Below, one piece after another: positions 1-37,600 of a stretch of DNA of 64,000 bases (the stretch's first letter is position 1; the number at the start of each line of letters is the position of its first letter). The DNA is taken from contig CP141132.1 of NCBI GenBank assembly GCA_035236585.1, positions 55,897,880 through 55,961,879 of the forward strand. The letters are read 5' to 3'. The stretch comes from Warburgia ugandensis. Lineage: Eukaryota; Streptophyta; Magnoliopsida; Canellales; Canellaceae. The notes beneath the pieces are model-generated. The model did no database searches. It saw only the letters and a list, made by a program, of their open reading frames with translations, and had not been told where the DNA came from. The translations under genes were made by a program, and so were the position numbers.

Positions 1-1254
1 GCTTAGACATTTACCTCAGAGTTGATTATTTGAGCATTTATGTTGCAAGACCTGTGGTTCTCCTGAAGTTTTGCCAGTAGACTCATTTTGATGGCAGACC
101 TTTAACAAACCCTTTTTTCTATTTTGCCCTTTTTCTTGTTGGATGTTATGACCAGCTGGGTCTTCAATCCTTTTCTTTCTCTCATGCTGTAAAGTCATGT
201 CATGCGGAAAGTCAAAATGTCCCCACTCATATATAGGCACCCAGGATTATGCATCATCATCTTTCAGGCTATTTCTTTACCTTGTTGCTGTTTGAACAGC
301 TTGATTTGTCTCACTTCTTTTTGTTTCAATCAATCTGTGTAATTACTGTCAAAGACCACAACATTCGCTAATGCTCTATGAGGTCACAGAAGAGTGGATA
401 GCTGGTATATTTCTTGACTTACCTGTCCAGCAAGTCACATGCACTGAGTTCGAGTAATGAATCTTCTTGCATGCTTCACAGAGCCTTTCTTTCACATGAG
501 TGACAGCAATGATGACCTTCAGAACCACACGACCATCCCAGCAGGCTGTTCCCTACTAAGTTTAGGAAGCCATGTGAATATACCTCACACAGACTATGCA
601 CAAGTGGGAGTGCGAAAAATCTTGTACCCATGATCTGAAGCAGATAGTCAAAATAAAGCTAAAGTCCCATTGCTATTGCAATAGAACTTCCAGTAAAGAA
701 TAGTTTTTGGTTTTACCTAAATACCTTTTCATTCCTCTGTGGTATCATTTTTTCTTCTGTTGTTTTGTTGCTTTCCAGACATTTAATTTCTCTTTCTGGT
801 AATGGTACATCACCATTAGAAACCAAAACAGTGAATGTCATGCTAAGGAGGTTGATCTTAAACCTACTGCTAGTTCATGTTTGCATGACAGTATTTTAGT
901 AGCCTACACAAATGCTGGGAAACCAAAAAGTGAAAATGCCCTGTTAAAGAGGTTTGGCCTTGAACCTACTGCTTTTTCAGGTTTGCTTGACATTTTTCTA
1001 GTAATCTACACCAGACAGGTAGAATTCTTGTGCTCATTGATGTAAAACCTCGTACTGCTACATAACATCTCAAGTCAACTATTTCATGATTTCCCGTACT
1101 TCTTTATCGTGTGAAATTTTGGTTTGCTTTAGTTGGCCTTCTTTTTCAGTTTCTAATCTCTTTTAAGTTGGTATCTAATATCCAGAAGCATTGAGAGTCA
1201 GTAGATGACTTTTCAGTTCAAATTATTGCTCTAAGACTCTGTTTCTTCTTGTAG
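1..1254 (+). other. OCP3 upstream intron (partial)
   Basis: Non-coding sequence leading to the acceptor 'cttcttgtag' before the exon at 1255. No convincing upstream OCP3 exon was found, so this is read as intron. It contains a 100-bp-period direct duplication at 819-1006, listed separately. Confidence 0.6.
819..1006. repeat. Two-copy tandem duplication, 100-bp period
   Basis: Copy 1 starts at 819 and copy 2 at 919, both beginning gaaaccaaaa. Both contain 'aacctactgct', a 'gtttgc-tgaca' motif and the ending 'ctacac'. By eye roughly a quarter of positions differ, so it is an old duplication within the OCP3 intron. Confidence 0.7.
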
Positions 1255-4200
1255 AAGCTACTGCAAACTGTTTATGAAGAGGAAGATGATATAGATGAAG
1301 ATGCTTTTGAAGCATTGTTTAGTCAGCTGGAAGAAGATCTTAAAAATGATGACATGTCCACTGGTGACAGTGATGACGAAATAACTGAAGAGGACCTGGC
1401 TAGATTAGATCAGGAGCTGGGCGAAGCACTTGCTGATGTGGATGATCATGAACTATCAGAAAGTTTACCCTCAAATACATACAGTTCGGAGAGTGATGAT
1501 GATGATGATGATGAACAAAGACAGCCTGATCTTAAAAAATGGCAATTTCATAGATTGGCTTCTGCTTTAAAAATTGGCCGACGGAAAACTAGTGTAAGTA
1601 CCTCTCTATAATGCACCATTGGGAGAATCTAGTTGCACTCATCCTGAAGATCTAATACAGCCTCTTTTTGTAGATAAAAAATCTTGCTGCAGAGGTGGGC
1701 CTTGATAGGGCTTTAGTTCTTGAATTGCTTCGTGATCCTCCTCCAATTCTCTTATTGATGTCTGCTTCTTTACCTGATGAAGTGGTGCCAACTCGGTTGC
1801 ATGAAAGCAGACCCTTAGAACTAGAATCTTCTTCTATACCAGTAGATGTTCCAAAACCTAATCCCGAGGTGAAATCACCAGTCCATGTCATGCAAAACAG
1901 ATGGTCTGCACAAAAGAGACTGAAGAAAGTGCAACTTGAAACCCTTGAAAGAATTTACTCCCGCACAAAACGTCCAACTGTGAGTAAAGTTTCTTCTTGG
2001 TCTATCTACTTTACTTCAAATGCAATTCCTCATTTCACCTCTTATTTTGCATTGTTATTTGAGAGTAGTTATTCCGCAATACTTGCACTTGCAACTCAAG
2101 GCAAGCGACTGTTGCCACGTCTCAACTTATTATATTTATATATGTACATATACAGTATAGAGATTCTAAGGCAGCAGAGAAGTCATCTTCTGTTCCATTG
2201 AAAGCTTAAGACTGGTCTTACAATGTCAGAATATCATCTCCTCTATGTTTAGATAATGTAACATCTTCATATACAGAAGTAGTACAAAGCATGACAATGT
2301 ATGGGCATATAAACATCCGTGGTCTTGAAGGCCCTCCCATCCGAGTCCATGAGATCATCTGTTTGTTCAGTATGTTTGAAAAGAACATGTTAAACCTCTT
2401 GGAAGTTCTAAAACCATGTCTATACTGTGACATTAAATAAAGAAAACTCTATCATATCTATATCATTTCTAAAGATGCAACCAGACTGATGACCCTAGAC
2501 TGCCTAACGACCTGTTGTTAAATTGTGCTAGGGGTTTGTCAATCATAAGACAGAGGACTAGGTCTGTGAGCCCACATGCCTATAAGATCTAGTAGACAAA
2601 CTGGGGCCTGTATTGCACCCTGATAGACTAGCAATATGCTCTTCGTACCTCCACAGCTTTCCATTTGATAAACTGATACACAGATATTCTATGGCTTCCC
2701 CAATATTATATGCATATTTGACATGTGAAACTCCCATTTCTTTGTTATTGCTTGCTTTGATTTTGAGGCACTGATTTCCAGATACCGAAGATGCAGGCTG
2801 AAAGTTCTCCTATCTGGAGAAGTGTGCTTTATTAAATGATTTACCTGAAATAGGACCTTGGTGGTTGGATGCTGTAATCCTCTTGGTGACCTCAACACTG
2901 AACATAGGCACTATCCAACTTAACTGCAAGAAACACATGAACTGAATATATCTTCTAGGTTTCTTCAAAAGATCAATAATTATATTTGTACTGCTTTCAC
3001 ATTCAAAACCATAGCTGTTCAAGAAAAGAACAACAAGACAACACACAACAGTCTTATAACAAAATTTAACGACAATGGTCTGTTAGGTTCTATCCATTAG
3101 AAGCAGTGGGAAGCATAGCATGGCAGTTAATCATTAACACTATGATGGCAACAATGGGTCAAGCATGTGGCTGGACACACCAGTTCTGTTGTTTCTTTCC
3201 ATTGGAGGTTCCCTGATATTATTCCCCTACTGTGATCGTCTAAAAAGGATGGTTCTGCATTTATCATTTTATTCTATTATTATAACCCCTCAACAATGAG
3301 AAGAGACTGCCAGGCTTCAGAAACTCTATTGACACCTATTCTCATCCTTCTCCCCTAAGCCACCTCCCAAATCCCGTTTTACCATCAACCTGCCATAGTT
3401 CCACTCTATAGTTGAATAAAAGATCCGAATGTATCCTTATCAGTGAAAAGATACTGCCTTGCTTAAAAAATTCTGTTGTTACCTATTCTCATCTGTCCCC
3501 TAAACCATACACCCAACTGCCTTTTTACTGTTAACCTACTGTAGTTCCTTTATGTAGTATTTCTCTGATAGGAAACGAGCAAGACAAGCAGTAATGTGAG
3601 GAATTCCAATTGATAATGCCCAGTTACAGAGATCAGAATTACAGTAATGGAGGCTATCAGATTCAGCCTCTGAGATGTGTACAGAAAATGGTTTATCAAG
3701 AAGTTCAAGAAGAAAGAAATAGTTCCTAGCTTTCGAGGCTATGTAGATAGCGGCGCACCTAAGTGCAAGTCGACAGGTATGCGCCTGGGAGTGTGCATGG
3801 TGTAGAGGAAAAGAGGCGCAGTCTCCTAGGCATGCGCCTGGGTGTGCCTGGGCACACCTGTCAGGCACGCCCCCGACTCCAAGTGCGCGCCACTTACCCG
3901 GTAACGTATAAACCTCTTCTTTTTTTTTCGTTTTTCACCTTCCAACCCTAATTTCAATCTTCCAACCTACTGAGAAGGTGAAAATGACCATTCCTCTTCT
4001 ATCTTTCACAGATCTAAGCAACAAAAGGTATGGATTTACAAATTTTAGTATTTGTTTATAGTTTCTGTAAAAAAACGTAAAAACCAGTACCGTTTTTTCA
4101 ATTTTTTTGTTTTTTGTTAACTATTTTCCATAGATCTTGATGGGTTTTAGTTTTATATGTATCAGAAAACATTCCATTTGAGTTTTATACTTCTTTGCTC

Positions 4201-4921
4201 TAGATTTGAGTTTGTTTTTAGGTTTTTTACTGTTTTTCCGAAAAAATCAATTACGAAAATATAAAAAAGTCTTCGTTTTTTCATATTTCTTCATTGAAAC
4301 ATATTTCTATCCACATATATAGCTTTCCCATGCTTGTGTCTTCATGTGTGATAATTTTTTCATCTTTTTCTTTTTTGTAATTTAGGGTTATTTTTTAAAT
4401 TTTTTCAAAAATAAAAGTTACGAAAATTAGAAAAAAATTGTTTTTTTTTTTAATATTTATTAGTTAATACCTATTCTTATCCACATATATAGCTCACCCA
4501 TGCTTGTATCTTCATGTATGATGTATTTTTCATGCTTTTTTTGTATTTTAGTGTTATTTTTTTTTCAATTTTTTTGAAAATAAAAATTACGAAAATTAGA
4601 AAAATATAATTTTGCACCTCATGTTTCAGGCACGTGCCTAGGTGCCCTAGGCTCCAGGCACACCCCCTGCGCTTGGGTGCACCTATGACTACATAGTTTC
4701 GAGGAGCTAGGCCCTCCCACTACTCCCACTCCAACTGAATTCCCCTCGATCCTCTCTAAATGATTTCCCCCCTCTGCTAGTTGTCCTTATTCTTTCCAAG
4801 TAATAGAACTCTTAGTTACCTATGTCAGTAATTGTGTGAATCAGCCTCTTCTTGAGTAGAACTTTTCGAATCGACCCTGAGATGCAGCTGATGTAACAAT
4901 ACCTTCTAACAAATTCTAGTT

Positions 4922-4957
<36 letters not shown>

Positions 4958-7228
4958 TTTTAAATGAAAACTTTTTAGGCCAATTCCTACACTAATGAGA
5001 ATTGGATTTTTTGAAGTATAGTCTAGATAATTTTAGCTTATTAATGGAATTGAACATGATTAATTCACCATTTTACTCATTTTCTAAAGTATTCCATGAA
5101 AGCTTTTACTTTTACCATTGCACCAAGGCTCCCCTTCTTATTCTATGAAAGCTAAGTCCTATATTATATCTGTATACGCAGTTGCATATACATAGTCTAA
5201 ATTGATAAGTAGTTATAACTTAGAGATCTTGAAGAAATTTAGTGGAGACCTATAACCCAAGTTTTAGAATCATTCATTTTTCTGAGAGGTTATAAAGATT
5301 CTAAATTTTTCTTCAGCATGCTTAAAGTAAATTTGAAAAGAAAGTTGGCAATTTGTACTAAAGTGAACATTTCTTTTTTCACTTTTTTGCATTCTTTAAA
5401 ATTCTAAAAGTTCATTGAATCTGATTGATTATATGAAACTTAGAAAATGATTTAGGCCATCCTTGTTGTTAACTTAGAAACATAAAGCCTACCCAAAAGT
5501 GTTTTTATCACTAGTTAGCCAATTTGAGCCTTTTATACAAGCCTTTTCTTTTATCACCAAAATTACCTTTACCCATATTAACCTAGTATAAATTATCTAT
5601 TTCTTTAAAAGATAAGTTAGAGATGAATGAAAATATACTTTTTAGTTGAAATGAAAGTAGAAAATTGAATATCAAGAAAAGAAATGTTCTTCAAAGAAAT
5701 TCAAAAAGTTGAAAAGAAAGAAAACTGTTGGAAAAAAAGAAAAAGTTTGAAGAATGCAAAAAAAGTGGAAAAAGAAATGTTCACTTTAGTACAAATTGCC
5801 AACTTTAGAAGACCTCTCTACTTATTTTTGAAGAAACTTTGAATGTCCTTTATTCCCTTTCTTTGGTACCTTGTCCTAAGCTTAAGTTTCGTCAAGGTTG
5901 CTTACTATAGGCCCTTGTGGTCCACCCCTTCCCCGGACCCTGCATAGGTAGAAGCTTTGTGCACTGGGGCTGCTCTTTATTTTAGGATGAACATAGTCTT
6001 GATGAGGATATGAAAAGATAGGATTTAAAGAGTAGTATTTCTGAAAGTTCAAAGGTAATGGCATCCATTCTAAAGGGATCAAAACTAAAGTCCTTAGAAC
6101 TCCCGTTCCTTCATGAATATATGTGAGATAAATTTGATTTTATTTACTTTGCTCACATAGCTAAAAGAGAGAGATGATTTAAACCTTTATCTAAGAGATT
6201 TTATTTCTGAGTGTATGTCATTAGTGAGGATTGAGGTCAAAATATATTTCAAATGAAGTTCAAAAGTTAGAAGTCTACTTAGAGATAAAGATTAGTCTAT
6301 ATGTAGACTATACACATAGACACTTTGAGATCTGAGCTCAAATGGAATGTTTTTAGCATATGAGTAGGGTTTTGAATTCTTCATTCATTTTTATTAATTT
6401 GCTAAATTTGATAGATTTATGGAAGATAATTCTCTAAGGAAAAAATGGAATTGACTTGAAAATTAAATTTTGGAATTTTGTGATTTGGTTTTTTTCATGT
6501 TTTGATAGGGACTAGCAAAATGCTGGTTGGGGGGCATGGTAAGTGTTTAATTTCACCAAAATACCTTTAATCTAGCATCTAATTAGATCATCAAAGCAAT
6601 CAATTTTGAGATTTTGCATAAAATTTTGCATTTTAGCTCTAATTGGCCATCCAATCGTTGAATTGCAAAATTTAACGGTTAGATGATCATCAGAGCTAAT
6701 TAGAGGTGTAATGAACGGTTTACATGATTCTAATTTGGCCCTGTGTTGCAGATCAATCAAATCAACATTGGATCATCTAGATTGATTTGAATGGATTAGA
6801 TCATAAATAAGGAAACTTCTTGAAAAAAGATGAAATTGAAGATAATCAGGAAACAAAGATGGATAAGGAAGAAGAAGAGGAGTTTGAATCAAAATCAAAC
6901 TCCTCTGAAGAATCTATAAAAGGGGAAGAAAACTGAAGAAAAAAGAGTTGAAGGTTGGAAGGCTAGGAGGCTACTAGTTGATCTCTCTCAATTCCCTCTC
7001 CCTCGTTCTTTCTCCTCTTTTCTCTCTCTCTCTCTCTCTGACTTCGCTCTTCTATTTGCTTCTAACTCCCCCTCTATCTCACTTTCTCTCTACACCAGCA
7101 CCTCTCCTCTCTTTTCCCTTCTTTGTCTCTCTCCTCTCCCTCTTGTCTTCGTTCTCTCCTTCTCTCTTCCTCCCAACACAGACTAAGTCGATCACCGCCC
7201 TACTGGCCGCTCTCATTCCCCTCTCCTG

Positions 7229-7322
<94 letters not shown>

Positions 7323-8519
7323 CTCTTTTCCCTCTGTTACTGGCTTTGTCTTTCCCGCCTTCCTCTATTGCACCATTCCCAGCCAAGCAGCCTTGTCTCC
7401 CTCTCTTTCCTCACCTCTCTCTCTCCCTCGTCTGCTCGATATGGCAAAACAACGCACTCAGCCTGCATTGGCCTGAAATCTCATCACCAGCCACTGAATT
7501 CTTTTTCATTGCATCGGCAATAGCAGAACCGGTGAACCCAGTCACTGGTTTCTCCTCTTTCTCCCGTTCTTTCTTTATCGGATCAAGAGGAGAAAACCCA
7601 ACTTGAGTTTTCTCCATTTGCTCCTCTCTGTCTCCCTCATCTTCAGTGCCTTCTCTGTTAGATTCTCTGATTTTTGTTTAAAATAAAAAATTTGACAAAA
7701 TTCTAATTTTTCCCTCAGAAAAATAATTAAAATTCCATTTGAATCTTGTTTTTGTTCTTATTCTAGTTCTGTTTTATCCAGATTCTGCTATTTGAGTTCT
7801 GTTTTATTTTCAATTTAATCTAGGAACTGAGTTATCTAAACCTATTTTATTCAAGCTTAACCAAATCAACGTTCTAGCTTGAATAAAAAAGATTTCTTTA
7901 ATTCATCATCTGTTTCACATTTGAATTTCAATTAATTTTTAGGTTTTATTCTTAGGACACCTCTTAGCTTATTCAACAGTTCTGATTTTCAATTTGAAAT
8001 TCAGAAATAAGATCTAAGCCGTCCAAACCCAAAATTACTCTTTAGCCCAGATCTTCTAAATTTTGGGTAATCTTCTCAATCTAATCGTCAGATCTTCAAT
8101 CAGAGCTATCAGTGAGAGATTGATGAAGGCCAATCGAAGTTTTTGATATCAGATTGGAAGAATTTTGTCATAATCAAGCTGGGGAAGTAGATTTTGTGTT
8201 TTTTAGTTAATTTTTTACCTTTTTGAATTTGAATTTTTGTAATTTTTAGTAGCTAAATATATTTTAGTTTATAAATCATTGTTAGTTAATTTTTTTTTTA
8301 ATTTTTAGATAATTAAATTTTATTTAAACTCCATCTTTTTAAGTCGAGTCTTGTGGGATCGACACGTACTTGCATATGCTATAACCCGACATGCACCTGC
8401 CGAAAATCCCATCACTGGCCGGTGAATCCTTTTTCTTCTTGCTCGACACAGCCCTTTGCCAGCACCATGTAGGTAGCCAGCCACCAACCAGTGACTGCAT
8501 CGCCGCATTTGTTCACCCC

Positions 8520-8560
<41 letters not shown>

Positions 8561-11500
8561 TAGATTGGCCAGCATTTGTTTCCAGCCATCGTCGTTTTCT
8601 CTTTTGTTTTTTTCGGGATCTCTACACTATAGATCAAATTTACTTTAAGCACACTGAAGAAAAATTTGGAATATTTATAACCTCTCAAAAAGATGAATGA
8701 CTATAAAACTCACTTAGGTTATAGGTCTCCACTGAATTTCTTCGGGATCTCTAAGTTATAACTACTTATCAATTTAGACTATGTATATGCAACTACGTGT
8801 ACAGATGTAATTTGAGACTTTAGCTTTAATAGAATACTTTAGAAAATGAGTAAAATGATGAATTAATCATATTTAATTTCATTAATAAGCTAAAATTATC
8901 TAGACTATACTGCAGAAAATTCAATTCTTACTTTTTAGGTTAATTCCTACACTATGATGAGAATTGAATTTTCTGCAGTATAGTCTAGATAATTTTAGCT
9001 TATTAATGAAATTAAATATGATTAATTCATCATTTTACTCATTTTCTAAAGTATTCTATTAAAGCTAAAGTCTCAAATTACATCTGTACACGTAGTTGCA
9101 TATACATAGTCTAAATTGATAAGTAGTTATAACTCAGAGATCCCGAAGAAATTCAGTGGAGACCTATAACCTAAGTGAGTTTTATAGTCATTCATCTTTT
9201 TGAGAGGTTATAAATATTCCAAATTTTTCTTCAGTGTGCGTAAAGTAAATTTGATCTCACAAACTCTTAAATTTGTCTAATTACCTGAATAATCAGAATA
9301 TTACCTTTAAAATTTTAAAAGTTCATTGAATTTGATTGATTATAGGAAACCTAAAAAATGATTTAGGCCATCCTTGTTAACTTAGAAACATAAGGCGTAA
9401 CTAAAAATATTTTTACCACTAGTTAGCGAGTTCGAGCCTTTTATATAAACTTTTTCTTTTGTCACTCAAATTACCTTTTTCCATATCCATTATCCATTAT
9501 AAGTTATCCATTATCCATTTTCATTAAAACATAAGTTAGAGATGAATGGAGATGTACTTTTTAGCTGAAATGAAAGTAGAAAAGTGAATATTAAGAAAAT
9601 AAATATTCTTTAAAGAAATTCAAAAGGTTGAAACGAAAAGAAAAGAAAAGAAGAGTTTGAAGAAAAAAAAATAGAGGAAAATATTCACTCAAAAACTTGT
9701 TGATTGTTTTACCTCAAGTCTACGTGCTATTATAGTATAGTTGATGCAAGTACGGGTCGATCCCAATGGGACTCGACTTAAAAGATGGAGTTTAAATAAA
9801 ATTTAATTTTCAAAAAATTAAAAAAATAATAGAAATTAACTAAGAATGAATTATAAACTAAAATCTATTTAAGTACTGAAAATTACAAAAATCCAAATTC
9901 AAAAAGATAGAAAAATAACTAGAAAACACATAAATCTACTTCCCTAGCTTGATTATGACAAAATTCTTCCAATTTGATATCAAAATCTTTGATTGGCCTT
10001 CATCAATCTCTCGTTGATAGCTCTGATTGAAGATTTGACGATTGGATTGAGAAGATTGCCCAAAATTTAGAAGATCTGAGCTAAAGAGTAATTTTGGGTT
10101 TGGACGACTTAGATCTAATTTCTAGATTTCAGATTGAAGATTAGAACTGTTGAATAAGCTAAGAGGTGTCCTAAGAATAAAACCTGAAAATTAATTGAAA
10201 TTCAAATGTAAAATAGATGATGAATTAAAGAAATCTTGTTTATTCAAGTTAGACCGTTGATTTGGTTAAGCTTGAATAAAACAGGTTTAGATAACTTAGT
10301 TCCTGGATTAATTGAGAATAAAATAGAACTCAAATAGCAGAATCTGGATAAAATAGAATTGGAATAAGAATAGAAACAGGATTCATATGGAATTTTAATT
10401 ATTTTTCTAAGGACAAAATTGGAATTTTGCTAGATTTCTAATTTTAAACAAAAATCAGAGAAGCCGACAGAGAAGATGACGAAGACGGGGAAGCAGGAGA
10501 TGGGGGAGATAGAGAGAGGCAGGGAAGAAGAGTGAAGAGAGGAGCAAACGGGGAAAACTCAAGTTGGGTTTTCTCCCTTTGATCCGATAGAGAAAGAGTG
10601 GGAGAAAGAGGAGAAGCTGGTGATTGGGTTCGTTGGTTCTGCTGTTGCCAGTGCGATGAAAAAGGATTCACTAGCCAGTGATTGGATTTCTGGTCAGTGC
10701 GGGTTGAGGGCGTGGTTCTTCCGTATTGGGCACATAGAGAGAGAGAGAGAGACAAGGCTGCTTGGCTGGGAATGGTGCTATAGAGGAAGGTGGGAAAGAC
10801 AGAGCTAGTAACAGAGGGAAAAGAGCTGAGATAGAGGAAGGGGTGGGGGGAATGAGCTCGGCCAGTCAAGCGGTGATCGGCTTGGTCTGTGTTGGGAGGA
10901 AGAGATTAGAGAGAGAAGGAGAGAACGAAGACGAGGGAGAGGAGAGAGAAAGAAGGAAAAAGAGAGAGGAGAGGTGCTGGTGTAGAGAGAAAGTGAGATA
11001 GAGAGAGGGAGAGTTAGAAGTAGAGAGAAGAGAGAAGAGAGAGGTCGAGCAAGAGAGGAAAGGTGATAGAAAGAGAGAAGAGGGAGAAGTGCGAGAGAGA
11101 GAGGGAGAGAGAAAGAGATAGAAGAGTGAGAGAAAAGAGGAGAAAGAAAGGAGAGAGGGAATGAGAGAGAGGGAAGAGGGAAAGATCCACCCGCAGTCTC
11201 CCAACCTTCCAACCTCCAACTCTTTTTTTTTTTCCCCAGTTTTCTTCCCCTTTTATAGATCTTTCAGAGGAGTTTGATTTTGATTCAAATTCCTCTTTTT
11301 ATTCCTTATCCATCTTTGTTTCCTTATTATCTTCAATTTTCTCTTTTTCCAAGATGTTTCCTCATTCATGATCTAATCCATTTAAGTTGATTTGAATTAT
11401 CCAATTTTGATTTGATTGATTTGCAACACACAAGACCAAATTAGAATAATCTAAGCCGTTCATTACACCTCTAATTGGTTCTGATGATCATCTGACCTTT

Positions 11501-13212
11501 AAATTTTGCAATTCAACGGTTGGATGGTCAATTAGAGCTAAAATGCAATTTTTTTTACGTAAAATCTCAAAATTGATTGCTTAGATGATCTAATTAGATG
11601 CTAGATTAAGTGTATTTTGCTTAAAATTGAACACTTAACATACATCCCCAACCAGCATTTTGCTAGTCCTTAACAAAACATTCGAAAAACCAAATCACAG
11701 AATTTCAAATTTTTATTTTCAAGTCAATTCCACTTTTTCCGTAGAGAATTATCTTTAATAAATCTATCAAATTTAGCAAATTAATAAAAATGAATGAAGA
11801 ATTCAAAGCCTTACTCATATGCTAAAAACATTCCATTTGAGCTCAGATCTTAGAGAAAGTGTGTGTGTACAGTCTTCATATAGAATAATCTTTATCTTTA
11901 AGTAGATTTCTAACTTTTGAACTCCATCTGAAATATGTTTGACCTCAATCCTCACTAATGACATATACTAAGAAATAAAATCTCTTGGATAAAGGTTCAA
12001 ATCATATATCTCTTTTAGCTATGTAAGCAGAGTAAATAAAAGCAAATTTATCTTACATATATTCATGAATGAATAAGAGTTATAAGGACTTTAGTTTTGA
12101 TCCCTTTAGAATGGATGTCATTACTTTTGAACATTCAGAAATACTGTTCTTTAAATCCTATTTTTTCATATCTTCATCAAGACTATGTTCATCCTGAAAT
12201 CAGTAGGCTTTTAACTGGGACGAAATGTAGGCTTAGGACAAGGTACCAAAGAAAGGGTATTCAAAGTTTCTTCAAAAATAAGTTGAGAGGTATTCTAAAG
12301 TTAGCAATTTGTACTAAAGTGAACATTTTTTTTTCCACAAACCTGAATTTTTGAGTTTTGGCTGGTACGGAAACAGTACTGGCGACTAGAGTGGGGACAC
12401 CCTCTGATATCCTAAGGAAAAGAGAAAAAGAGGACATATTGAGTATTATAGAAGCGTAACAACATATAACCGTTCAGCTGTTTTTAAAATATTGTTCAAA
12501 CTACAGGTGAAATTTAACTGTTTCATAGAACTGCCTGTTCCTCCAAGAAAAGGGAAAAAGAAATAAGGACTGGCTGTGCTGACACTTAGAGACAAGGAAT
12601 ACGTATGTTATCAATTATCTGCTGAAATATTAATTCTTCTTGGCATTCATTTCCATTCAGTTCTGGAATTAATTAGGTGGATCATGTTACAGTCTATATA
12701 TATAGATGTATGTTGAATCTGGGTTTCTGTTACTGAATGAATTTGACATCTGGTTTTATAGGAAAAGTGTCTAAGGAATTGATGTTGTTGTCTTGGAATC
12801 AAGTTCAACCTTACAGGTGGTGATTTTCTTTGCCTGCACCTGCTGGGGTTATATCAGGATTCATACATGCATTAGTTGCACTTTCATCACAAATACTCAT
12901 AACTCATCCATCCTACCACATATCTTGGCCATTTTGTTGGAATTTATTGATATAAGCAAAAACATATGTGCAACTACTTGGGATTCTGACATGCACAATA
13001 GCCTGCGTTGAATTCAGTAGATACTTGTTTCAGTCCATACTCATCCTGCGAGTCGCCTGCAGAATGCGATGATCAGCAGCATAGTGCATGTGACGAACTT
13101 GCCACGGAAAAGAGTTGTGAAATGGTTTGAGGATAAGCGTCACGAAGATGGAGTTCCTGAGCAACGGCAACCCTACCGCCGATCTGTTCGTCAGACTGTT
13201 CCCACGAACTAA
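1255..13212 (+). CDS. OCP3: OCP3 homeodomain protein, 3' three exons (5' end outside window)
   Basis: Recognised from the conserved order of an acidic region, a 'KNLAAEVGLDRALVLELLRD' block, and a C-terminal homeodomain. Exons are 1255-1593 (113 codons), 1674-1979 (102 codons) and 13063-13212 (49 codons plus TAA), all in phase 0 with GT-AG borders (ACT-AGT|gtaagt; gtag|ATAAAA; CCAACT|gtgagt; cctgcag|AATGCG). Exon 1 here is rich in Asp and Glu, including a run of six Asp. Exon 2 ends in the first part of the homeodomain (QNRWSAQKRLKKVQLETLER). Exon 3 encodes the recognition helix with WFEDKR where classical homeodomains have WFQNRR, as is usual in OCP3. In Arabidopsis OCP3 modulates ABA- and jasmonate-linked defence and drought responses, and a plastid role has been reported. 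About 264 residues are visible; the N-terminal exon or exons lie left of the window. The reading frame is intact. The 11.1-kb last intron is the odd feature. Confidence 0.93.
3307..3556. repeat. Degenerate tandem duplication in OCP3 intron
   Basis: Segments 3307-3412 and 3451-3556 share the order 'actgcc-gctt', 'acctattctcatc', 'cccctaa', 'cc-tttttac', 'aacctgccatagttcc' or 'aacctactgtagttcc', and 'tatag/tgtag'. Period is about 144 bp. Function unknown. Confidence 0.6.
3739..4696. mobile_element. Non-autonomous hAT-like DNA transposon
   Basis: The element is 958 bp, flanked by a perfect 8-bp direct repeat TTTCGAGG (3731-3738 and 4697-4704), the target-site length of the hAT superfamily. Its ends begin CTATGTAG and end CTACATAG, and the inverted similarity continues imperfectly (left GCGCACCTAAGTGC, right GCGCTTGGGTGCAC). 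Subterminal GC-rich motifs of the type aggtgccctaggc and gcctgggtgtgcctgg occur at both ends, while the middle is very AT-rich. No transposase is encoded. The perfect target duplication suggests a fairly recent insertion. A Mutator-like origin (8-11 bp duplications) is less likely because the terminal repeats are short. Confidence 0.78.
4130..4612. repeat. Internal tandem units of the hAT-like element
   Basis: Two clear units of about 170 bp start near 4309 and 4480. Each contains 'ccacatatatagct', 'cccatgcttgt', 'tcttcatgt' and 'attacgaaaat' in order. A third, more diverged unit precedes them (from about 4130, with tcaattacgaaaat at 4248). Confidence 0.65.
4926..4956. repeat. (TTA)n microsatellite
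   Basis: About ten perfect TTA units immediately upstream of the Athila 3'-end remnant. Confidence 0.9.
5341..5807. repeat. 55-bp inverted duplication inside the intronic LTR
   Basis: Segment 5341-5395 is the reverse complement of 5752-5807, with one mismatch and one length difference, separated by about 355 bp. In the sister LTRs (9246-9300 and 38826-38880) the left position holds a different sequence containing 'acaaactcttaaatttg' or 'caacttttaaatttgg', so the left arm is a replacement by an inverted copy of the right arm. Confidence 0.8.
6914..6923 (+). promoter_or_regulatory. LTR TATA box (same sense as OCP3)
   Basis: CTATAAAAGG within the intronic Athila LTR. The equivalent site recurs at 40449-40458 (CTATAAAAAG) and, inverted, at 11249-11258. 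It is followed by the pyrimidine-rich transcribed part of the LTR. Activity is unknown. Confidence 0.5.
7231..7320. repeat. (TC)45 microsatellite in LTR
   Basis: Ninety bases of uninterrupted TC. It lies downstream of the LTR TATA box within a longer pyrimidine-rich stretch (6980-7640). The open frames of Ser and Leu here are repeat artefacts. Confidence 0.95.
8400..8630 (+). mobile_element. Athila LTR mid-fragment, forward
   Basis: The stretch 'aaatcccatcactgg...gaatcctttttc' resembles the LTR interior at 7478-7520 and 48290-48560, and a (TC)16 tract at 8525-8556 occupies the same family position. It is joined directly to the truncated U5 end at 8399, so this is a rearranged piece rather than an independent insertion. 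Confidence 0.55.
8631..9257. repeat. Near-perfect 298-bp inverted repeat (palindrome)
   Basis: The left arm 8631-8928 is the reverse complement of the right arm 8960-9257, with two mismatches and no gaps (checked base by base). The 31-bp spacer 8929-8959 holds the Athila pre-LTR tract ttttaggttaattcctac. The arms are the first 298 bp of an Athila LTR, so two LTR 5' ends face each other head to head. It lies inside the OCP3 intron. Confidence 0.93.
8955..9692 (+). mobile_element. Athila LTR 5' part, forward
   Basis: Begins TGATGAGAATTG after the pre-LTR tract and follows the 38547-39290 LTR for about 735 bp. It then switches at about 9692 to an inverted LTR 3' end. The left 298 bp are the right arm of the palindrome. 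Confidence 0.75.
9693..12335 (-). mobile_element. Athila-type LTR fossil, reverse, in OCP3 intron
   Basis: Reading leftward it ends in the U5 signature (9700-9780; 'gcaagtacgggtcgatccc' on the plus strand) and a few bases of the primer-site side (aaaaac). The inverted TATA element CCTTTTATAG is at 11249-11258, followed leftward by a purine-rich tract (10480-11210) that mirrors the pyrimidine tract of 6980-7640. It lacks the first 0.7 kb of the LTR. Together with 5770-8395 it forms an outer inverted repeat with arms of about 2.6 kb. Confidence 0.78.
13063..13212 (+). CDS. OCP3: OCP3 terminal exon (homeodomain recognition helix)
   Basis: Separated from the previous coding exon by 11 kb. It reads NAMISSIVHVTNLPRKRVVK, then WFEDKRHEDGVPEQ, and ends PTN-stop at 13210-13212. 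The polypyrimidine tract is weak, but 'cgcctgcag' is a good acceptor and the frame continues without loss of phase. It is listed separately because a gene finder could easily miss this link. Confidence 0.92.
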   Translation, partial: NAMISSIVHVTNLPRKRVVKWFEDKRHEDGVPEQRQPYRRSVRQTVPTN

Positions 13213-15107
13213 TTAGTTAGAGTTTAGCTAAGTGAATTCTGTGAACGATATGTGGGCGTATATATTTCAAGTTTTTCCATATTCCTATGGATTCAACAGC
13301 TCTTTTAGCATATGTGATATGTGCTAGTATTGGATCGAGAGACTGCAGACCAAGATTGAGGCTGTGCGTGAGTATAGGTCAAGCTTTCTCCATATATGCG
13401 TGTATGTACTAGAATTAGTATTCAATGAATAGATCAGTGGCTCTGTGTACTTTATGGAATCTCCACTCTATATCAAAAGCTCTTGCAAGTGGCATTAATG
13501 TTGTAAGTCTTAAATTAGATAGGAGCGTTAGATTCCTTCTATTTTACTTCTTTCAATGGAGTGAAGGAAAGAAGAGAGGAAAGTGGTTCACTGGAAAATG
13601 GATTTTCCTTCTTGACTCTTGAAGGTCCTCTTATATGTGTATGCAAGTTTTTCGTCTATGAACAACATTGGAGGAGCGAAATTGTATTAACAACTTCGGG
13701 TGATGCACTGATTCATGCAATGGTTCCAAAATATGTTGATGAGGCTCAAAATGGAGTAACTACACGAGTATACTCAAGACTGAGGAAATATTCAATTTGA
13801 GAAACTTGGTATGCGCCATAGTGCTGTAGGTTATCCTATGAATACATGAGTATCTGCAATAACCTTATTTTTATATCTCAGAGGTCACGCCTTCTTTATT
13901 TAAAGTGATACTTTTCATCGGCTGGTGAAGAAATAAGAGTGCCAAAACCGAAACAGAGGCGGTAAGAATATGATCGCCTTTTCCTATCGGTTGGTCTTGT
14001 GAAGTATCATTTAAATCTTCGCGACAAGTTTATTGGAGGCAAAGTCAAAGTGTAATGGATGGGTTCATAAGGCATTGACATATATTTAATGTTTGCCAAG
14101 AGAAAAGAAATATATTTGATGTAATTATACTTTGAAGCTAAAGAAATATTTAAATCATCATTTCCATTCTTCCCAATCGCCTAGAGTCAAGAGAGACTGC
14201 TTCTCTCAGCCTCTCTAAAGAATATAAAAATAAATAAAAGATAAAAGGCAGAGTGGAAGGGAGAAAGGAAAATAGAGGTGGTTCAGTGAGATCTTTAGTA
14301 CTCCAACATGACTGCAACTTGATTTAAAATCCTTTGTTTAGCGTTGGATCCTTTATCTCAAGTGCTTTCTGCTTCATCTGTGCGGAAGATGAACGAATTT
14401 TGTTATAATGTTTCAGCCAAAGTCAAATGGCTATTAATCATCCATGGTTAATATATTCAAGAGCTATTCACAATCTACAAAGGGACCACGTCCAGATGTG
14501 TAAGTTGGGTCAATTCAACTTGAACTCAAGTCCAGTTTCCAACTGTATATGTTTGGGGATTTGGGTCGGGTTGCTTCATATTCGTTTACTCAGTCCAGGT
14601 CGACGCAAGTTGCATAATCCCCTCTTAATCTTTTCTAAATATTATTGAATAATGTTCTAAGAATGAGCTAATGTCTGTAAATTCCTAGTCATTAAAATAA
14701 TTTCCAATTAGACAGTAAAAGTTAGGAAGAGAAAACAATTTCAAACGAGGTCCCAAAATAATTCACTTAAAATTGACGACATACCTTTAATTACTTTTAA
14801 GTTCATGAGAATATTACCTGAATTTTTTCTTTTCTTTTTTCTTTGGGAATGGTGCAGATGTAAAATTAACAGATAAAGTGATGGATCAACAGAGAAACAA
14901 CAAGGAGCATAACTCTATACATGCCATCCCTGTAGTCAAGAGCCAAAAAACAACCACATTTAATCAAACAGAAAATGCCCAAAGGCTACTTTCATCAGTG
15001 TCTAGCAGCTAAATCGTGAATCTCGGTGAAAAATTGATTATATGTGAGACAGATGAGAGAGTTGTAGTTTTTGTTTTCAGTACATTAGTGATAGGCATAT
15101 AAAGGGT
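13213..15107. other. OCP3 3' UTR and unassigned intergenic sequence
   Basis: The first few hundred bases are presumably OCP3 3' UTR. An open stretch at 13561-13800 could be a decayed coding fragment, but I recognise no family. Nothing else was identified. Confidence 0.4.
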
Positions 15108-19680: not shown

Positions 19681-19735
19681 CTCTAAAAAAAATGCACATC
19701 ATATTATATATAATATGATGTGCCTTTTTTTGAGA
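19681..19735. repeat. Short perfect palindrome with extended stem
   Basis: A 30-bp perfect palindrome at 19694-19723 (GCACATCATATTATA and its mirror). A-run and T-run flanks extend the pairing (ctctaaaaaaaat on the left, cttttttttgagag on the right). No target duplication was identified. Confidence 0.8.
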
Positions 19736-20460
19736 GAGTGTCATGTGTCACTTCTTCCTTTCTCTCTTCTCTTTTTGTTTTCATTTTTTCTTAAGCGTAA
19801 CATCTTCTTGATAAATGCCATTAAAATAGAGACCTTTGCAATGGTTACTTTAAGTAGACCCAAACTAACTTTCTTTAATTTTATATTTTCTATCTTTATT
19901 GTCTCATAATAATTCTTTATAAAATTTTTCTATTTTCTTTCTCTCCTCAAAAGATTTCTATTAATAAATGCTTTCTCCTTTTGTTTGGTTGGCTATTTAA
20001 TTAAAGAGAACAAATAGCTACTATATTTTCTCTAAATCCTAATTCATCTTATAAGTATTATATCTCTCTCCTCCTCTTCTTAGGTGAAGTTTCTATACAG
20101 TAGTCTTATTTCTATTGATAACTGTTTCCGCCTCAATTTGTTGCTAGTGAATACTACCAACTAAATTTGAATGAGTTTAGTTTTTCTAGAGATCATAATC
20201 ATATAGATTTCTTATAAATTTATAGATCTAGATCTTCTTAGATTTAGATTTCTTAGATTTTGATCTAATTAGTATAGGACAATAGTAGTGCTTTATTATT
20301 AGTACTAGTATTTTCCTGTTCTTTTTAAACTCCTTCTTTATCAGTCTCTTGGTTATCTTTTAACAAAACCTCCTATACAATTTTTGTCTCTTTTCTTTTC
20401 TCTATGTATTTTTGTCAAATGTTAATGTTTCATCTCATTTTAACTCTTTTCGATGCATAT

Positions 20461-26553: not shown

Positions 26554-29500
26554 CAAATACCCATAGACTTAGATTTTGTTAGTCTTCAAGCACAACTTAA
26601 AAAAAATAAAAAATAAAAATAAATCCTAACCACATTTTCTGGTGCTCTAGTTTACATTTAACATATGTAGAAAACCTTTAAACCCTTAGGTTACTCCTAG
26701 TGGAAGAGTTGTAGTCTTATAAGAGTTTCTAGAACCCATAAATATTTTCAAAAACCTTATGCAAGTCCTTCATGTATCTCAAAGAATTTTCTTGTACTCA
26801 ACATTCATAAAATTCCTAACTTTAGCATGCTAACAAAAATGACCAATAGTTCAGAATCCTATCTTGCTAAATATATTCCATTATTTCATTAACCTTGGAA
26901 TATGAGTGTGTGAATATATAGCCAATATACACGTAATTGTCAATTTTCAAGTAAACTATAACCCAAATTACCATATAAAAGTATGTTTTGACTTCAGTTC
27001 TCATAGAATATTCATAACACTCAGAAATGTGTTAGACTCTCTTCAATATGTGAGTAAAATAATGTTTCACAAGGTCAAATTCTCACATATTTCATACCAA
27101 AGAACAATAACTTAGAAAAAATCTAATATGGTCTCATGAAGGAATATAAACTATTTAAGAATGTTATACTCTATCAAATTCCTTACTCATTCATAATCAT
27201 ATTCAAGTCATACTTCTCCTGAGATCCGGTTAGGACTTTTAATAGGACAAAACATAGGCTTAGGATAGGGCTAGCAAAAGAATGGTATAAGGGTACACAA
27301 AGGTGTTTTGAAATATATGTAAAGGTCTTCTACAAAGTATTCTCAACTTTATTTTATAACTGTAAGAGTGAACAATTCCTTTTTTCATTGACTATCTTTT
27401 TATATATTTTATATTATACATTTTTCTCTTTTTGGATTTTCCTTTCTGATATAGCCTTTCTTTTAACTTTTCTTCTTTATGCTCATCTCTTGAATCGTAT
27501 TGTTCATACTTTTTTTCAAGATATTTCTCCAACCAACTCTATGTATTTCCAAAAACACTAGGTAACTGATATATTATAGGGTTTAAATGGGTAATGGTCA
27601 ATGGGTTTACAACAAAAAGGGATTATTATAAAGGCTCAAAGTGTTAACTAGCAAAAAAGTGACATAGTAAAGCTAAACGCTCAGTGTTTACCAAAGGTGG
27701 TTTCTATCACTTTCTGGGATTCATGTGACTTAAACATAACCATATACTCAAGAGATAAATGGTATAATCTATCAGATGGTTTCCTAATAGTTGACCAAGA
27801 TCAAGGATAATGAGACCAACTTAGAAATTATGTTTCCTGAAGAAATATTTGGGTTTATGTATATAACCCTCAAAAAGAAAGATTGTCTCTAAACTCATAT
27901 GCGTTAATAGTATGCACTTATCTCCTTCAAGATCTCTAAGTCATATTTTCATTTTACCTTAAACTATATAATATATGTGTATGACTCTTTGTGTAATGAA
28001 TATTTTGAGTTTAATTTTTTATGAAATACTTTAGAAAAAGGATAAAAAGATGAACCAATTGTATACAAATCTATTAATAAACTAAATTACAAAAATACAC
28101 TGGATATTGAAAGAATCTGATTTCTTATCCTTGTAAAGGAATTTATCATAAGTTTTTATCAAAATTTTTAAAAATCCTTTTTCAAATTTTTCTAGAAAAA
28201 AGAATAAAAATAAAGAAGAAAAACTCAAATAAAGATTTTGGAAGCATCAAATATGAAATATCCTACCCCTAGAATTAAATTAAACATTGTCCCCATTGTT
28301 TTGAAATAAAAGCATGGACAAATGAAAAATTAAGTAAGAGAAGGGTATCTAGTTATGATAAACATGCTCCTCTAGTAGGAGTTCCTCCTCTTCATAAGGG
28401 TTTCTCACTTGAAAGTATAGTTTCAACTGTTGGCCATTAACTTTGGAAAGTTTGCTGTCTTTTTCAATCTCGACGGCCCTACGAGGATAGACAATCTTTA
28501 TTATATATGGGCCAGTCCATCTAAAGTATAACTTTCCTAGAAAGAGATGTAGACGAGAATTGTAAAGAAGGACCTTCTGACTTTGTTCAAATGTTTTGCC
28601 ATATAATGGATTTATCATGAACTATCTTCATATGATCCTTGTACCTTTTGGCATTATCGTCCACATCTCTCCTAAATTCTTCCAACCCTTGAAGTTGAAA
28701 TTTCTTGTGGGACCCAACCTTGTCACTATCAAAGTTGAGCTATTTTATTGCCTAGTATGCTTTAGGTTCTAGCTCAACAAGCCAATGACAAGCTTTTCCA
28801 AAAGACTAGGTGATATAGTGACATTCTAATAGCAGTTTTATATGTTGTTTTATAGGCCGAGAGTATATCAGTTAGTTGAAGAGATCAAGCTTTCCTACTG
28901 CAGTTCACCATCTTTTCCAATATGTGATTAATTTCCCTATTCGATACCTCAACTTGCTCACTAGTTTGGGGATGTTAGGGTGTTGAAGTTTTATGCATAG
29001 GTCCATATTTGTTCATTAGGGCTTCAAATACCCTATCACTAATAATAGCATGTTGGAGTGCCAAAGCATAAAAAGATATTATCTTCTAAAATTTGAAGCA
29101 CCACCTTGTAGTCATTTTTCTTACACATTATTGCCTCTACCCATTTGGATACATAGTCTACCCCCACTAGGATGTATAGATTTCCAAAAGAATTAGGAAA
29201 GGGAGCCATAAGTCTATGCCCCAAGCATAAAAAATTTCAACTATCAAAATTGGGTTTAATGCCATCACATCCTTATGACCAATATTCCCTAACTTCTAGT
29301 AGAGATCATATACTTTATAGTACATGTCAGAATCATGAAACATCATGGGCCTATAAAGCCCATAATGCAAAATCTTTGTAACTGTGTTTTTAACATTGTA
29401 ATGCCCCCCACAAGCATGGGCATTTCCAAAAGGAGATGATTTTATTATGTTTATCATTTGGGACACATCTCCTAATGGTCTGGTCAAAACATAACTTGAA

Positions 29501-31610: not shown

Positions 31611-34600
31611 CCGTAATAGAGTTTTTATAAAATTTAATAAAAAATTAAAAAATTCAAACAAATAAAAATTCAAAGAATTAGTTTTTTTACTAATTGCATT
31701 GTTTTAGCATTTTAGGCATTTTAGGTGCATTTTTTAATTTTTATTAGTTCATAATCATTCTATTTCTTGAATTTGGTTTATATTAATATTTTTATTTTAC
31801 AAAAAATTAGAAAAAGGAGGAATTCAAGGAGGATCTCAATTAGCATAGCTAAATTTTATTTTGAGAGAATTGTAGTGAGGACACATTGTACTTTTTTATT
31901 AATAACAATCCATTTTAAAAGGGTTGTAATAATACAGGTCAAGGGGGGACCATCATAACCTAGAATTGGAGTTTAAATGTAAATAGTCCCACCCTTGTAT
32001 GAGAAGATCTTATCTAAGACCTCATTGTGAGCAATCCTAATTTCTTAAGTTTTCTAGATTAGGGTGCGTATTATTAGAATAATTTTGTATTGTTTAGTAG
32101 TATAATTGCATATAGTAAGCATATTTTATAATTATTGCATTTTAGGGTTTGCACTAGTTTATTATTTTTTTATTGCATTTTTGGGCACATTTATCACTTT
32201 AAGTATTTATATGTTGATCGAATTGCCATGGGGTATAAAAATTAATTAATAAGGGTACCCGACCTCACAAAATCAAGGATGAATTTAATCACCACTTCTT
32301 AGCCTACCTAGGATAATCACTACAAGCTCGCAACCCAGCCTTTCAAATTAATTTAAAATTAATTAAAAGAGACCTATAGAGGCCATCACATGCCTGTTGG
32401 GTCCTCTTAAAAAGACGCGATTTATTGTCGCTCCAGTGGTTTCTGGGCATTGTGGTGCTAGTGGGTGTCTTAAAATTCAAGTGATTTTCCCACGCCTTTT
32501 GTTGATGTCTGTTGAGGTCTAAGCACCTCCTAACATGAGGACTGTATTAACCACTTTAAAGTAGAACCCAATTGGTAAGCAATAGTCAAATTTGAAAGAG
32601 AGGATGAGCATTAGATTAAGCTAATCTAAAAGCATCTCTCCCACACAAATTCAAGAAAATCAAATTATTTTTTCTTGTTAGCCTTAGGGATTCTTTGATT
32701 GTGTATCATTCTAAGCATTTAGGTTGCATCATTTAGTGTAGTGTTTTTTCAAAAAATAAAAAAATAAAAGAGTCTTTCATTGTTTGCACTTTTTGATACA
32801 TGACAAAACTGAGAGGTTAGTCAAGCACAACCAAAAAGACATACAATTGATTAGTTACCACCAATGATCAATCAATGATCAAGGGGTAACTCATCCTATC
32901 GTAGTATTGAGGGTGCTCAAGGCCCTCCACTCATCATTAATGAGGACCCACCACCTCTAATTGATGATGAATATCAACCTCCACCAAGGAGGAATAATCA
33001 TCCACAAATGTAAAGAGACTGGAGAAGGAATGGAAAAAAAGTGTAGGACCAACAGAGTGACCATGGAGACAATGATGTCTATTAAAATCTTCATGGAGAA
33101 CTTTAAGAGATTACCTTCAGCCTACATGCACTAGTACACCATCTTGTGTCATTCTTCCTCAGAATGTTGGTGCATTGTAGAATTGAAAACAAGAGTAATT
33201 CAATTACTTCCAAAATTCCACGGGTTAGATAGTGAAAGTCCTTACTTGCACCTTAAGGAATTTGATGATGTATGTAGTATCCAACAAATACAAAACATTG
33301 GTTTAGATATTGCATGGCTTAAGCTTTTTATTTCTCTTTAAAGCAAAAAGAAAAATTGTGGTTTAATGCATTGTCAGCAAGTTTTATAAGGACCCAAAAT
33401 GAAATGACTAGGGAATTCTTGAAAAAAAATTTCCCTACACATAAAACAAATACACTTCACTGTAAGATAATGAACTTTACCCAGAAGGATAAATAGTCAT
33501 TCTACCAATGCTGGAAAAGGTTCAAGGATCTATTACTCACATGCCCACATCATGGCTATGAAAAATGGTGCATTATTAGTTTCTTTTATGAAGGACTTAA
33601 TTATGACATTCACCAGTTTGTAGACATGATGTGCAATGACAACTTTCTTAATAAACAACTAGATGAGGCAAAAGAGTATTTGGAATGGCTAGTTGAAAGT
33701 GCACAAACATGGGCTAATTCAGAAAGAGTAGAACATCTAGATAGACCTAAGCCCACTACCACATCTGCTAGGGGGCATGTATACCATGTCTGAAAAGGAT
33801 GAACTTAATGCCAGAGTAGCATCCTTAGCTAGAAAAGTAGAAGCCATATAAATGGGAAAGAAAAATTTGAATAAGGATGAACAAGTGTGTAGCATCTGTG
33901 AAAGTACTGCACATCTTACTCAGAAATTTCCTACCACTCCAGCATTCCAAGAGGTACTTCATGATTAGGCTAGTGCACTTAACACTTATAAAAGACCTTT
34001 CTCCCCATACTCAGAGACATATAATCCCAACTAGAGAAACTCCTTAATTTCAGTTGGAGAAATGAACCACCCACTACCAATGTCTGACAACTAGGTTTAT
34101 ATTAGCCTCACCAACAAAATGAAGGACTACTTGCTCTACCCCCATACCAAACTCATCAACTTCCTGCCCCTAGACCTTACTTGTCCCCATCCAAAAGGCC
34201 TATAGAGGATAATCAACTTATCCAAAACTAGGAGAGGAAAACTTCTCAATTAGAATTTCAACTAAAACAAATCAAATGGTTTGTGAATGAAATAAAAATA
34301 TGATGAGTCAATGGATGCAAAATATGGAAAAAGAAAAGTTTCTAGCTAATACACCTAATGCATCATCAAGCTCTACCATGGAATAGACTAAGGCTGTCAC
34401 CATTCTTAGGAGTGGTAAAATATTCAAGAAAGATGAGCCCCAAAAGATTGATAACATATAAAAACCAACTGAAAATAAAGAAAAGTTCAAAGAAAGAGAC
34501 CCCACTCCACTTGTTGAATCATGTCCTATCCTTGCTCCATTCCGTCAAAGGTTGTGTCAAGTCACAAAGAGTACTACTAATGATGAGATTATGGAGATAT

Positions 34601-37600
34601 TCAAGCAAGTCAAGATCAACATACCAATCTTAGATGTAATAAACAAATCCCATCATATGCAAAATTCTTAAAGGATTTATACACAATCAAAAGGAAATTG
34701 TATGTGCAAAAGAAGGCATTTGTGACTGAACAAGTAAGTTCAATTCTTCAGCACCATACACCCCAAAAATACAAGGATCTAGGTTGCCCCACTCTCACTT
34801 GCATCATAGGCAATCATAAGATTAACTAGACCTTATTAGATCTTAGATCCAATGTTAATCAATTACCATGCACAGTTTATGTTCAGCTATGATTAGTAGA
34901 CCTCAAGCCAACATCCACTACACTCCAACTAGTTGATAGATCAGTGGTAATACCTAAGGGAATAATAGAGGATGTGTTAGTCCAAATAGAATAATTCTTT
35001 TTCCCACTCAATTTCTTAGTCTTGAACACATAATTAGTGCTGAATGAGCAGCAAGAAATTCCTATCATCCTTGGATGTCCATTTTTGGCTATGTCTAATG
35101 CCTTAATAAACTACAAAAATGTTGTAATGAAGCTTTCATTTGGAAAAATGATACTAGAATTGAACATCTTTGATATCTGTAAGCAACCAAGAGAAATCTT
35201 AGATGACTTGCACTGTGTTAATATGATAAATTTAGTCATGTAAGATACTTTCATAACCTCTTCATTATTGAACCCACTTGAGGCCTGTTTGGCCCACTTT
35301 AATGAATTTAATGATCATACATTAATAGAGGAAGGCAATGTCCTCCTTAATTTTGTGCCCCTTATGGACACAGAGAAGGAAACCTCATTTTGAGGAACGT
35401 CCGCCGAGGGAGTCCACTCCCATTCCATCCTCAGTTGAATCTCCTAAGCTAGATTCAAAAGCTTTACCTTCTGACTCAAATATGCTTATTTAGGAGATAA
35501 AGAAAATTTTCTTGTTATAATTGCCCCTCAATTGGAAAAATCGCGAGAGGAGCAATTGATCAAAGCCCTTAGGGAACATAAAAGTGCAATAGGATGGATC
35601 CTAGTGGATATTGAAGGTATTAGCCCTTTACTATGCACTCATCAAATCTACTTAGAGGATGATGCTAAACCATGTCATCAGTTGTAGAGAAGATTAAATT
35701 CTAATGTGAAAAATGTGGTTACAGCAGAAGTCCTTAAATTGCTTGGTGCAGAAATCATCTATCCCATAAGTGATAGAAAATGGGTGAGTCCTACTCAAAG
35801 TAGTTTCAAAGAAGTTTGGAGTGATAGTGCCACTAATGCCAACAATGAATTAATCTCCACTAGAGTTACCACTAGTTGGCATATGTGCATTGATTATAGA
35901 AAATTAAATGCTATCACTAAGAAGGACCATTTTTTTTTGCCTTTTGTTGATCAAATGTTAGAAAGGATTGCAGGACACCTGTATCACTGCTTTCTAGATG
36001 GTTATTCAGGGTTAACCAACTAGAAATTGCAATGAGGATTAAGAAAAGACCACTTTTACATATCCTTTTGGTACTTTTGCTTATAAAAGAATGCCATTTG
36101 GATTATGTAATGCTCATGACATATTTCAACGTTGCATGTTGAGCATTTTCAGTGATATGGTAGAGAGAAATTTAGAGGTTTTCGAGGATGAATTTTCAGT
36201 TTGTAGTGATTCCTTTGACACATGCCTTGAAAATCTAAGAAAAGTCTTGAGTTGTTGTGAGGAAAAGAACCTAGTACTTAATTAGGAGAAGTGTCATTTC
36301 ATGGTTTCAAAGGGAATTGTCCTTGGCTGCATAGATCCAAAGGTACAAAGGCAGATTACGCCAAAGTTGATTTAATAACCAATCTACCCATCCCCAAATT
36401 TGTTAGGGACATTTGCTCATTCCTAGGTCATGCAAGATTCTATGGGAGGTTTACTAAAGATTTTAGTGCCATATTCAGACCATTGTGTCACCTCCTTACT
36501 AAGGATACCCCTTTTGAGTGGATTGATGATTGTCAGGAATCTTTTATAAAGTTGAAAGACAAGTTAACCATTACGCCTATTATGTTGCCACCTGATTGGA
36601 GCCTACCCTTTGAAATCATGTGTGATGCTAGTGATTATGTTGTAGGAGTTGTAATAGGATAGAGAAAATATAAAAATCCGTATGTCATCTACTATGCAAG
36701 TAGGACCTTAAATAACACCCACATGAAGTATTCTACTATAGAGAAAGAACACCTATTAGTTGTCTTCGTATTGGATAAGTTCAGGTCTTACTTAGTTGGA
36801 TTTAAAATAGGCATCTTCATTGATCATTTGGACCTAAAGTATCTTCTTTTAAGCCTACACTAATTAGATGGATGCATTTACTCTAAGAGTTTGACATTGA
36901 GATAAAAGATAAAAAAGGAGTAGAGAATGTTATAGCTGACCATTTATCTTGCCTAGTCCTAATTGAACCTTTGGATGAGTTTCCAATTAAGGATACTTTC
37001 CATTGTGAGCAACTCTTTCACGACTCCCATCCTCCCTGGTTTGTTGATATTGCAAATTATTTAGTCACAAGGTAGATTCCTAAACATTAGAAGAAATTAG
37101 AAAAAAAAATTTCTTTTCCAATGTTAAGCACTACTTCTAGGATGATCCATATATTTTTAAGTACTTCCCATATCAAATAATTAGGAGATGGATCCTTGAC
37201 CTAGAGCAACATAATATCATCTCCTTTGTTATTTAGAAGCATGTGGTGGACATTTTTCTGTGCATAAAACTATTGCAAAGATTTTGGATTGTGGTTTCTA
37301 TTGGCCGTCATTGTTTAGAAACATACATGTATTCTTTAAATCATGTCAGTGATGTCAAAACTTAGGAGGAATAATCCATAGGAATATGAGGTCTCTAAAT
37401 TGTATCCTTGTCATCTAAGTTTTTTATTGGTAGGGCATTGATTTAATGGGGCTATTCCCACCTTCTTTTGGTTATATTTATATCTTATTGGCTGTAGCCT
37501 ATGTATTCAAATGGATTAAGGCTATGCCATGCAAGCATAATAATCATAAAATAGTTGTTAAATTCTTAAGAGAAAATAATTTTTTTTCTAGATTTGGGAC

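Follow-up and report, generated by a model that had tools for sequence, protein, structure and literature searches.

A 298-bp inverted duplication of Athila-like sequence in the last OCP3 intron of Warburgia ugandensis, probably left by DNA repair

Results

An inverted duplication in the last OCP3 intron

In the assembly, the last intron of the Warburgia ugandensis OCP3 gene harbours a genuine inverted duplication of retrotransposon sequence with clear bounds, probably a repair accident of a kind that is already known. We consider it reasonably likely that this palindrome is a private and fairly recent inverted duplication, formed during DNA repair when an end folded back at a break. It was analysed in a stretch of 64,000 nucleotides, which we refer to as the window, and the features of its surroundings are collected in Table 1. 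The two arms comprise 298 nt each and can be aligned without gaps; they agree at 296 of these positions (99.3%), with mismatched pairs at 8753/9135 and 8648/9240, and a spacer of 31 nt separates them. When the region 8631-9257 was folded as RNA, an energy of -482.6 kcal/mol was obtained, compared with a mean of -111.4 kcal/mol for 20 dinucleotide shuffles. Chance origin of this inverted repeat is out of the question.

We next to this surveyed 30 partly overlapping sequences (214,468 bases), which consisted of the window and the fetched loci and thus cover a small part of the genome, for inverted pairs of at least 90% identity with arms less than 3 kb apart, with the low-complexity filter on. 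No other pair of at least 100 bp was found in these sequences. At a length threshold of at least 40 bp only two others appeared: a 64-bp pair of 94% identity inside copy 1 (5341-5403 / 5743-5806) and a 56-bp self-palindrome of 93% identity (19681-19736). A search of window positions 1-14000 for known RNA families at gathering thresholds gave no hit.

To define the host gene, we aligned six OCP3 proteins by tblastn and obtained an exon on the + strand at about 1255-1602 as well as the two exons listed in Table 1. The best OCP3 protein hit is from Tasmannia lanceolata. The splice join reads ACT/GTGAGT ... CTGCAG/AAT, with the donor at 1980 and the acceptor CAG ending at 13062, and the reading frame is continuous across it. 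As part of the gene, the intron is presumably transcribed. Comparison of an OCP3 protein with the whole genome (1,122,538,268 bases in 14 contigs; 5 of 5 candidates scored) yielded three matches, all at this locus, which appears to be the only OCP3 copy in the 1.12-Gb genome. An earlier note on this DNA had described a 298-bp, 99% identical inverted repeat with two differences and no gaps, had placed it in an OCP3 intron and had proposed a long hairpin in the pre-mRNA. The repeat is present in the assembly just as described, protein homology, splice sites and frame agree on its position in the intron, and the hairpin is predicted very strongly.

Table 1. Features of the last OCP3 intron and its flanking exons (window positions)
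Feature	Position	Strand	Remarks
OCP3 exon upstream of the intron	1674..1979	+	start approximate; earlier exon ends near 1602
Last OCP3 intron	1980..13062	+	11,083 bp; GT donor, AG acceptor, frame preserved
Copy 1, 3' internal region, Athila-like	4880..6537	+	start approximate
Copy 1 LTR	6538..8392	+	3' end approximate; clear homology stops at 8383
Fragment X	8393..8630	+	mosaic, partly like the middle of an LTR
Left arm	8631..8928	-	298 bp from the 3' internal (non-LTR) part of an Athila-like element, copied in inverted orientation
Spacer	8929..8959	+	31 nt; normally precedes the arm in other copies; presumed fold-back loop
Right arm	8960..9257	+	followed without a break by the usual downstream sequence; presumably the template; both private changes (9135, 9240) are here
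Continuation of the 3' internal region	9258..9689	+	broken at about 9689/9690
Copy 2 LTR	9698..11639	-	opposite orientation
Copy 2, 3' internal region	11640..12338	-	end at about 12338
Last OCP3 exon with stop codon	13063..13212	+

The arms stem from the 3' internal region of an Athila-like element

The palindrome had previously been read as two LTR 5' ends facing each other, with the spacer as the pre-LTR tract. Our data do not support either assignment, and no arm lies at an LTR terminus. The bounds of the LTR were set by comparing both ends of two genomic elements (C14 and C10). The sequence repeated at the two ends runs from TGTTAAG, which follows a G-rich polypurine tract, to AATCAACA. 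Its first letters are TGTTAAGTGT, which in the 3' copy are immediately preceded by a tract of the type GGTTGGGGGGTGT; in the 5' copy its closing AATCAACA is succeeded by AGTTTTTGGCACC. The C10 element is flanked by a GCCTC target duplication; for the C14 element no clean one was seen. In both elements the arm sequence was found about 1.44-1.46 kb upstream of the 3' LTR, and the search, in which up to 3 errors were allowed, gave a single match for each element, the 5' LTR containing none. This single occurrence, ahead of the 3' LTR and outside the 5' LTR, identifies the arm as 3' internal non-coding sequence. The spacer is likewise internal-region sequence of the kind that usually lies just upstream of the arm: stretches of 28-29 nt match it at 97-100% beside 5 other genomic arm copies.

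An internal polypurine-like tract, AGGTTGGGGGG followed by TGTAGAATTC, was considered as LTR start and rejected, the real start lying about 1.6 kb further on. In the fetched genomic copies this tract is located about 110 nt upstream of the arm, and it is easily mistaken for an LTR boundary.

Upstream of the arm copy at 38552 the coding domains follow in Ty3/Gypsy order, with gag at 33497, RT at 36043, RNase H at 36282 and rve (integrase) at 37434. RT and RNase H scored above the Pfam gathering scores, and gag (E 0.0016) and rve (E 0.0037) scored below them. The lineage name Athila was given by the earlier note, and the source element of the arms is consistent with it, which falls short of proof. 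Both arms and the spacer come from the 3' internal region of this Athila-like Ty3/Gypsy element but, unlike such elements, the intron holds only rearranged fragments.

The palindrome lies within an older inverted repeat

Inspection of the cluster revealed an outer inverted repeat (5979-8383 / 9736-12200) of about 2.4 kb and 82.4% identity, which brackets the palindrome and is absent from the earlier note. Its arms consist of the LTR and the 3' internal region of the same Athila-like element, and the LTR starts lie near 6538 (+) and 11639 (-). The whole cluster is a nested foldback of about 6 kb. Before the copy 2 LTR there are 8 nt that match the sequence usually found after a 5' LTR. Measured along the element, the internal region of copy 2 stops no more than about 20-25 bp from the point where the + piece is interrupted (9689). 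This is the arrangement that an ancient inversion in place of the downstream portion of a single copy would leave.

The duplication appears private to this locus

When the arm was searched for in the genome, the first look gave 4500 candidate places, of which 40 were scored. The 39 scored places other than the arm itself were 90-91% identical to it. For 15 of the copies we counted mismatches only, and these copies reached at most 92.5% identity to the left arm and at most 91.8% to the right arm. Three good copies are located in the window (starting at 4998, 38552 and 58752); a weak match at 27837-28086 (68% over 254 nt) did not enter the subsequent comparisons. For the good window copies, identity to the arms amounts to 85-91% when only mismatches are counted and to 76-84% when gaps are included, and among themselves they share 69-80%. 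The former statement that the surrounding copies differ from one another at roughly one base in eight is roughly right for the arm region if gaps are disregarded.

At both sites at which the arms differ, the left arm carries the base of all other copies (15 of 15) and the right arm is private. The simplest reading is thus that the right arm acquired both changes after copying. The inner junction has a single exact match genome-wide, which is this locus; 18 other places were found, all at 3 mismatches, and a reversed control also gave 18. This search tolerated 3 mismatches in 24, so that a junction in a more diverged copy could be missed. To the left of 8631, homology to the next part of the element does not continue (score 16.0; 200 shuffles gave a mean of 16.2 and a maximum of 22). 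Taken together, the identity private to the locus, the inner junction, the changes confined to the right arm and the abrupt outer end suggest that the duplication event was local, private and younger than the family.

Discussion

Fold-back repair and its rivals

For the favoured fold-back repair, the following scenario can be envisaged. An old Athila-like fragment, already resident in the OCP3 intron, would have suffered a double-strand break immediately before the spacer. To the right of the break, the 3' end would then have folded on itself with a loop of about 31 nt, and extension by 298 nt would have copied the right arm. Finally, the new end would have been joined to fragment X, with a short filler resembling arm and spacer. 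Fold-back geometry, an abrupt outer end, private identity and a unique inner junction are all observed, and the sequence that is usually present upstream of the spacer is absent at the palindrome. At the outer join, the last bases of fragment X include TTCGGGATCTCTA, which recurs in the arm, and CTACACTAT, which recurs in the spacer. Matches of these lengths were reached by 20 of 3000 and 15 of 3000 random 31-mers, respectively, and this null overstates chance because the 31-mers were drawn from the window itself, which holds related copies. The two matches are suggestive of templated filler. The spacer ends show little pairing; the original upstream sequence is lost, so that microhomology at the base of the loop is not scorable. 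The mosaic structure of fragment X counts against the fold-back account.

Inverted duplications in which a non-duplicated spacer forms the loop are described in PMC3907307. Foldback insertions at breaks, in which synthesis produces one end while end joining captures the other, are described in PMC11724301. The palindrome shares with these cases the near-identical inverted copy, the non-duplicated spacer loop, the abrupt end and possibly a filler at the far join. However, the human cases given there are large, with spacers of at least 766 bp, and the short yeast insertions are mostly 5-34 bp long, whereas we are dealing with 298 bp and a 31-nt loop in a plant intron, which is outside both size ranges. 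Among the open-access literature matches listed, there was no report of this locus.

Template switching at a replication fork (MMBIR/FoSTeS type) is a close rival of fold-back, although we regard it as unlikely. Here, the fork would switch to the opposite strand at the arm, copy 298 nt and return upstream of the spacer. CTACACTAT occurs immediately ahead of the left arm and again within the spacer, which is what a return to the same place would leave, and the cluster contains several other joins. Nevertheless, this mechanism requires a pair of switches, compared with a single one and a join for fold-back, and ahead of CTACACTAT the spacer is not cleanly reproduced even though the arms are 99% alike.

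Palindromes are a classic class of assembly artefacts, and this speaks for an assembly error or a fold-back read as source. A chimera of this type would reverse everything past the spacer, but only 298 bp are reversed here. A simple fold-back artefact fits poorly because the flanks differ and because both arm differences are derived on one arm. Moreover, the 214 kb inspected, which make up a small fraction of the genome, contained no second such palindrome. On balance, an artefact is quite improbable. That an older inverted pair was homogenised by gene conversion between its arms appears more doubtful still: such conversion between close inverted repeats is well known and the presence of older inverted pairs at the locus is evident from the outer arms at 82%, but the identity extends over all of the left piece that is preserved, no diverged homology follows past its outer end, and conversion would have to stop exactly at both ends.

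Two other candidates were rejected. A MITE or another mobile palindrome was dismissed on the grounds that the junction search, made within 3 mismatches, revealed the inner junction at no second locus. Autointegration or a cDNA product was discarded since neither arm carries an LTR terminus and the join at 9690 has 8 nt beyond the LTR end.

Possible consequences at the RNA level

The OCP3 pre-mRNA should contain a near-perfect stem of about 298 bp inside an imperfect one of about 2.4 kb. The stem would be removed with the intron, and it may feed some Dicer products that act mainly on their own locus. Local effects on OCP3 splicing or on methylation of the intron are possible. The palindrome is most likely a by-product and not a selected silencer.

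A function as Mu-killer-like locus, in which an OCP3 read-through hairpin is diced to siRNAs that silence the Athila-like family in trans, is compatible with any of the proposed origins, but we consider it very improbable. It would draw on an inverted transposon duplication within a transcription unit and on a very strong predicted stem. Across the 15 other copies, 78 of the 275 arm 24-mers occur exactly in at least one copy, and this number rises to 241 of 275 when up to 2 mismatches are allowed. Against this stands that any single copy has only 0-38 of the 275 in exact form, that the arm is not LTR sequence and that such a large family is likely to have other siRNA sources. Judged from these 24-mer counts, the supply of siRNA in trans looks modest.

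The comparison with maize Mu killer itself calls for caution. According to PMC3440606, silencing there was accompanied by antisense transcription from an internal promoter of the locus, and read-through transcripts of the gene marked plants that failed to silence; the hairpin/read-through model is itself disputed in this paper. As a precedent, which is how the earlier note had used it, Mu killer holds in so far as both loci lie next to or within a transcribed gene, consist of a transposon portion duplicated in inverted orientation and could give rise to a hairpin RNA. It is weaker than had been stated since the read-through model is in dispute. In addition, Mu killer duplicates a terminal repeat along with a portion of the transposase gene, both from an active element, and its silencing effect has been demonstrated, whereas the palindrome is a non-coding piece of a diverged retrotransposon with a putative effect only.

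The most far-reaching version would regard the nested foldback in the OCP3 intron as an siRNA source driven by the host promoter, which silences diverged family copies in trans. We give this version even less credence than the Mu-killer-like function. If it were true, OCP3 expression would set the silencing dose for the family copies. A role in the control of a transposon family would matter more than a repair scar, but specific support for it is lacking here. What the locus offers is a clean and recent natural inverted duplication in a plant intron. Since template, copy and loop are all readable, the palindrome records a repair event. Since a single OCP3 copy was found and must be transcribed through the intron, it also provides a natural test of whether an intronic stem of about 300 bp is diced or removed.

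Rearranged or clustered copies of the family were also seen elsewhere. Three arm copies in the same orientation and about 8.6 kb apart (C2:67237000-67256999 and the match at C2:67257064) look like a tandem LTR-internal-LTR array of the element. One fetched genomic copy (L016) carries an LTR tail of opposite orientation upstream of its arm (2902-3556 and from 4734 onward), which is another rearranged or neighbouring element of the family.
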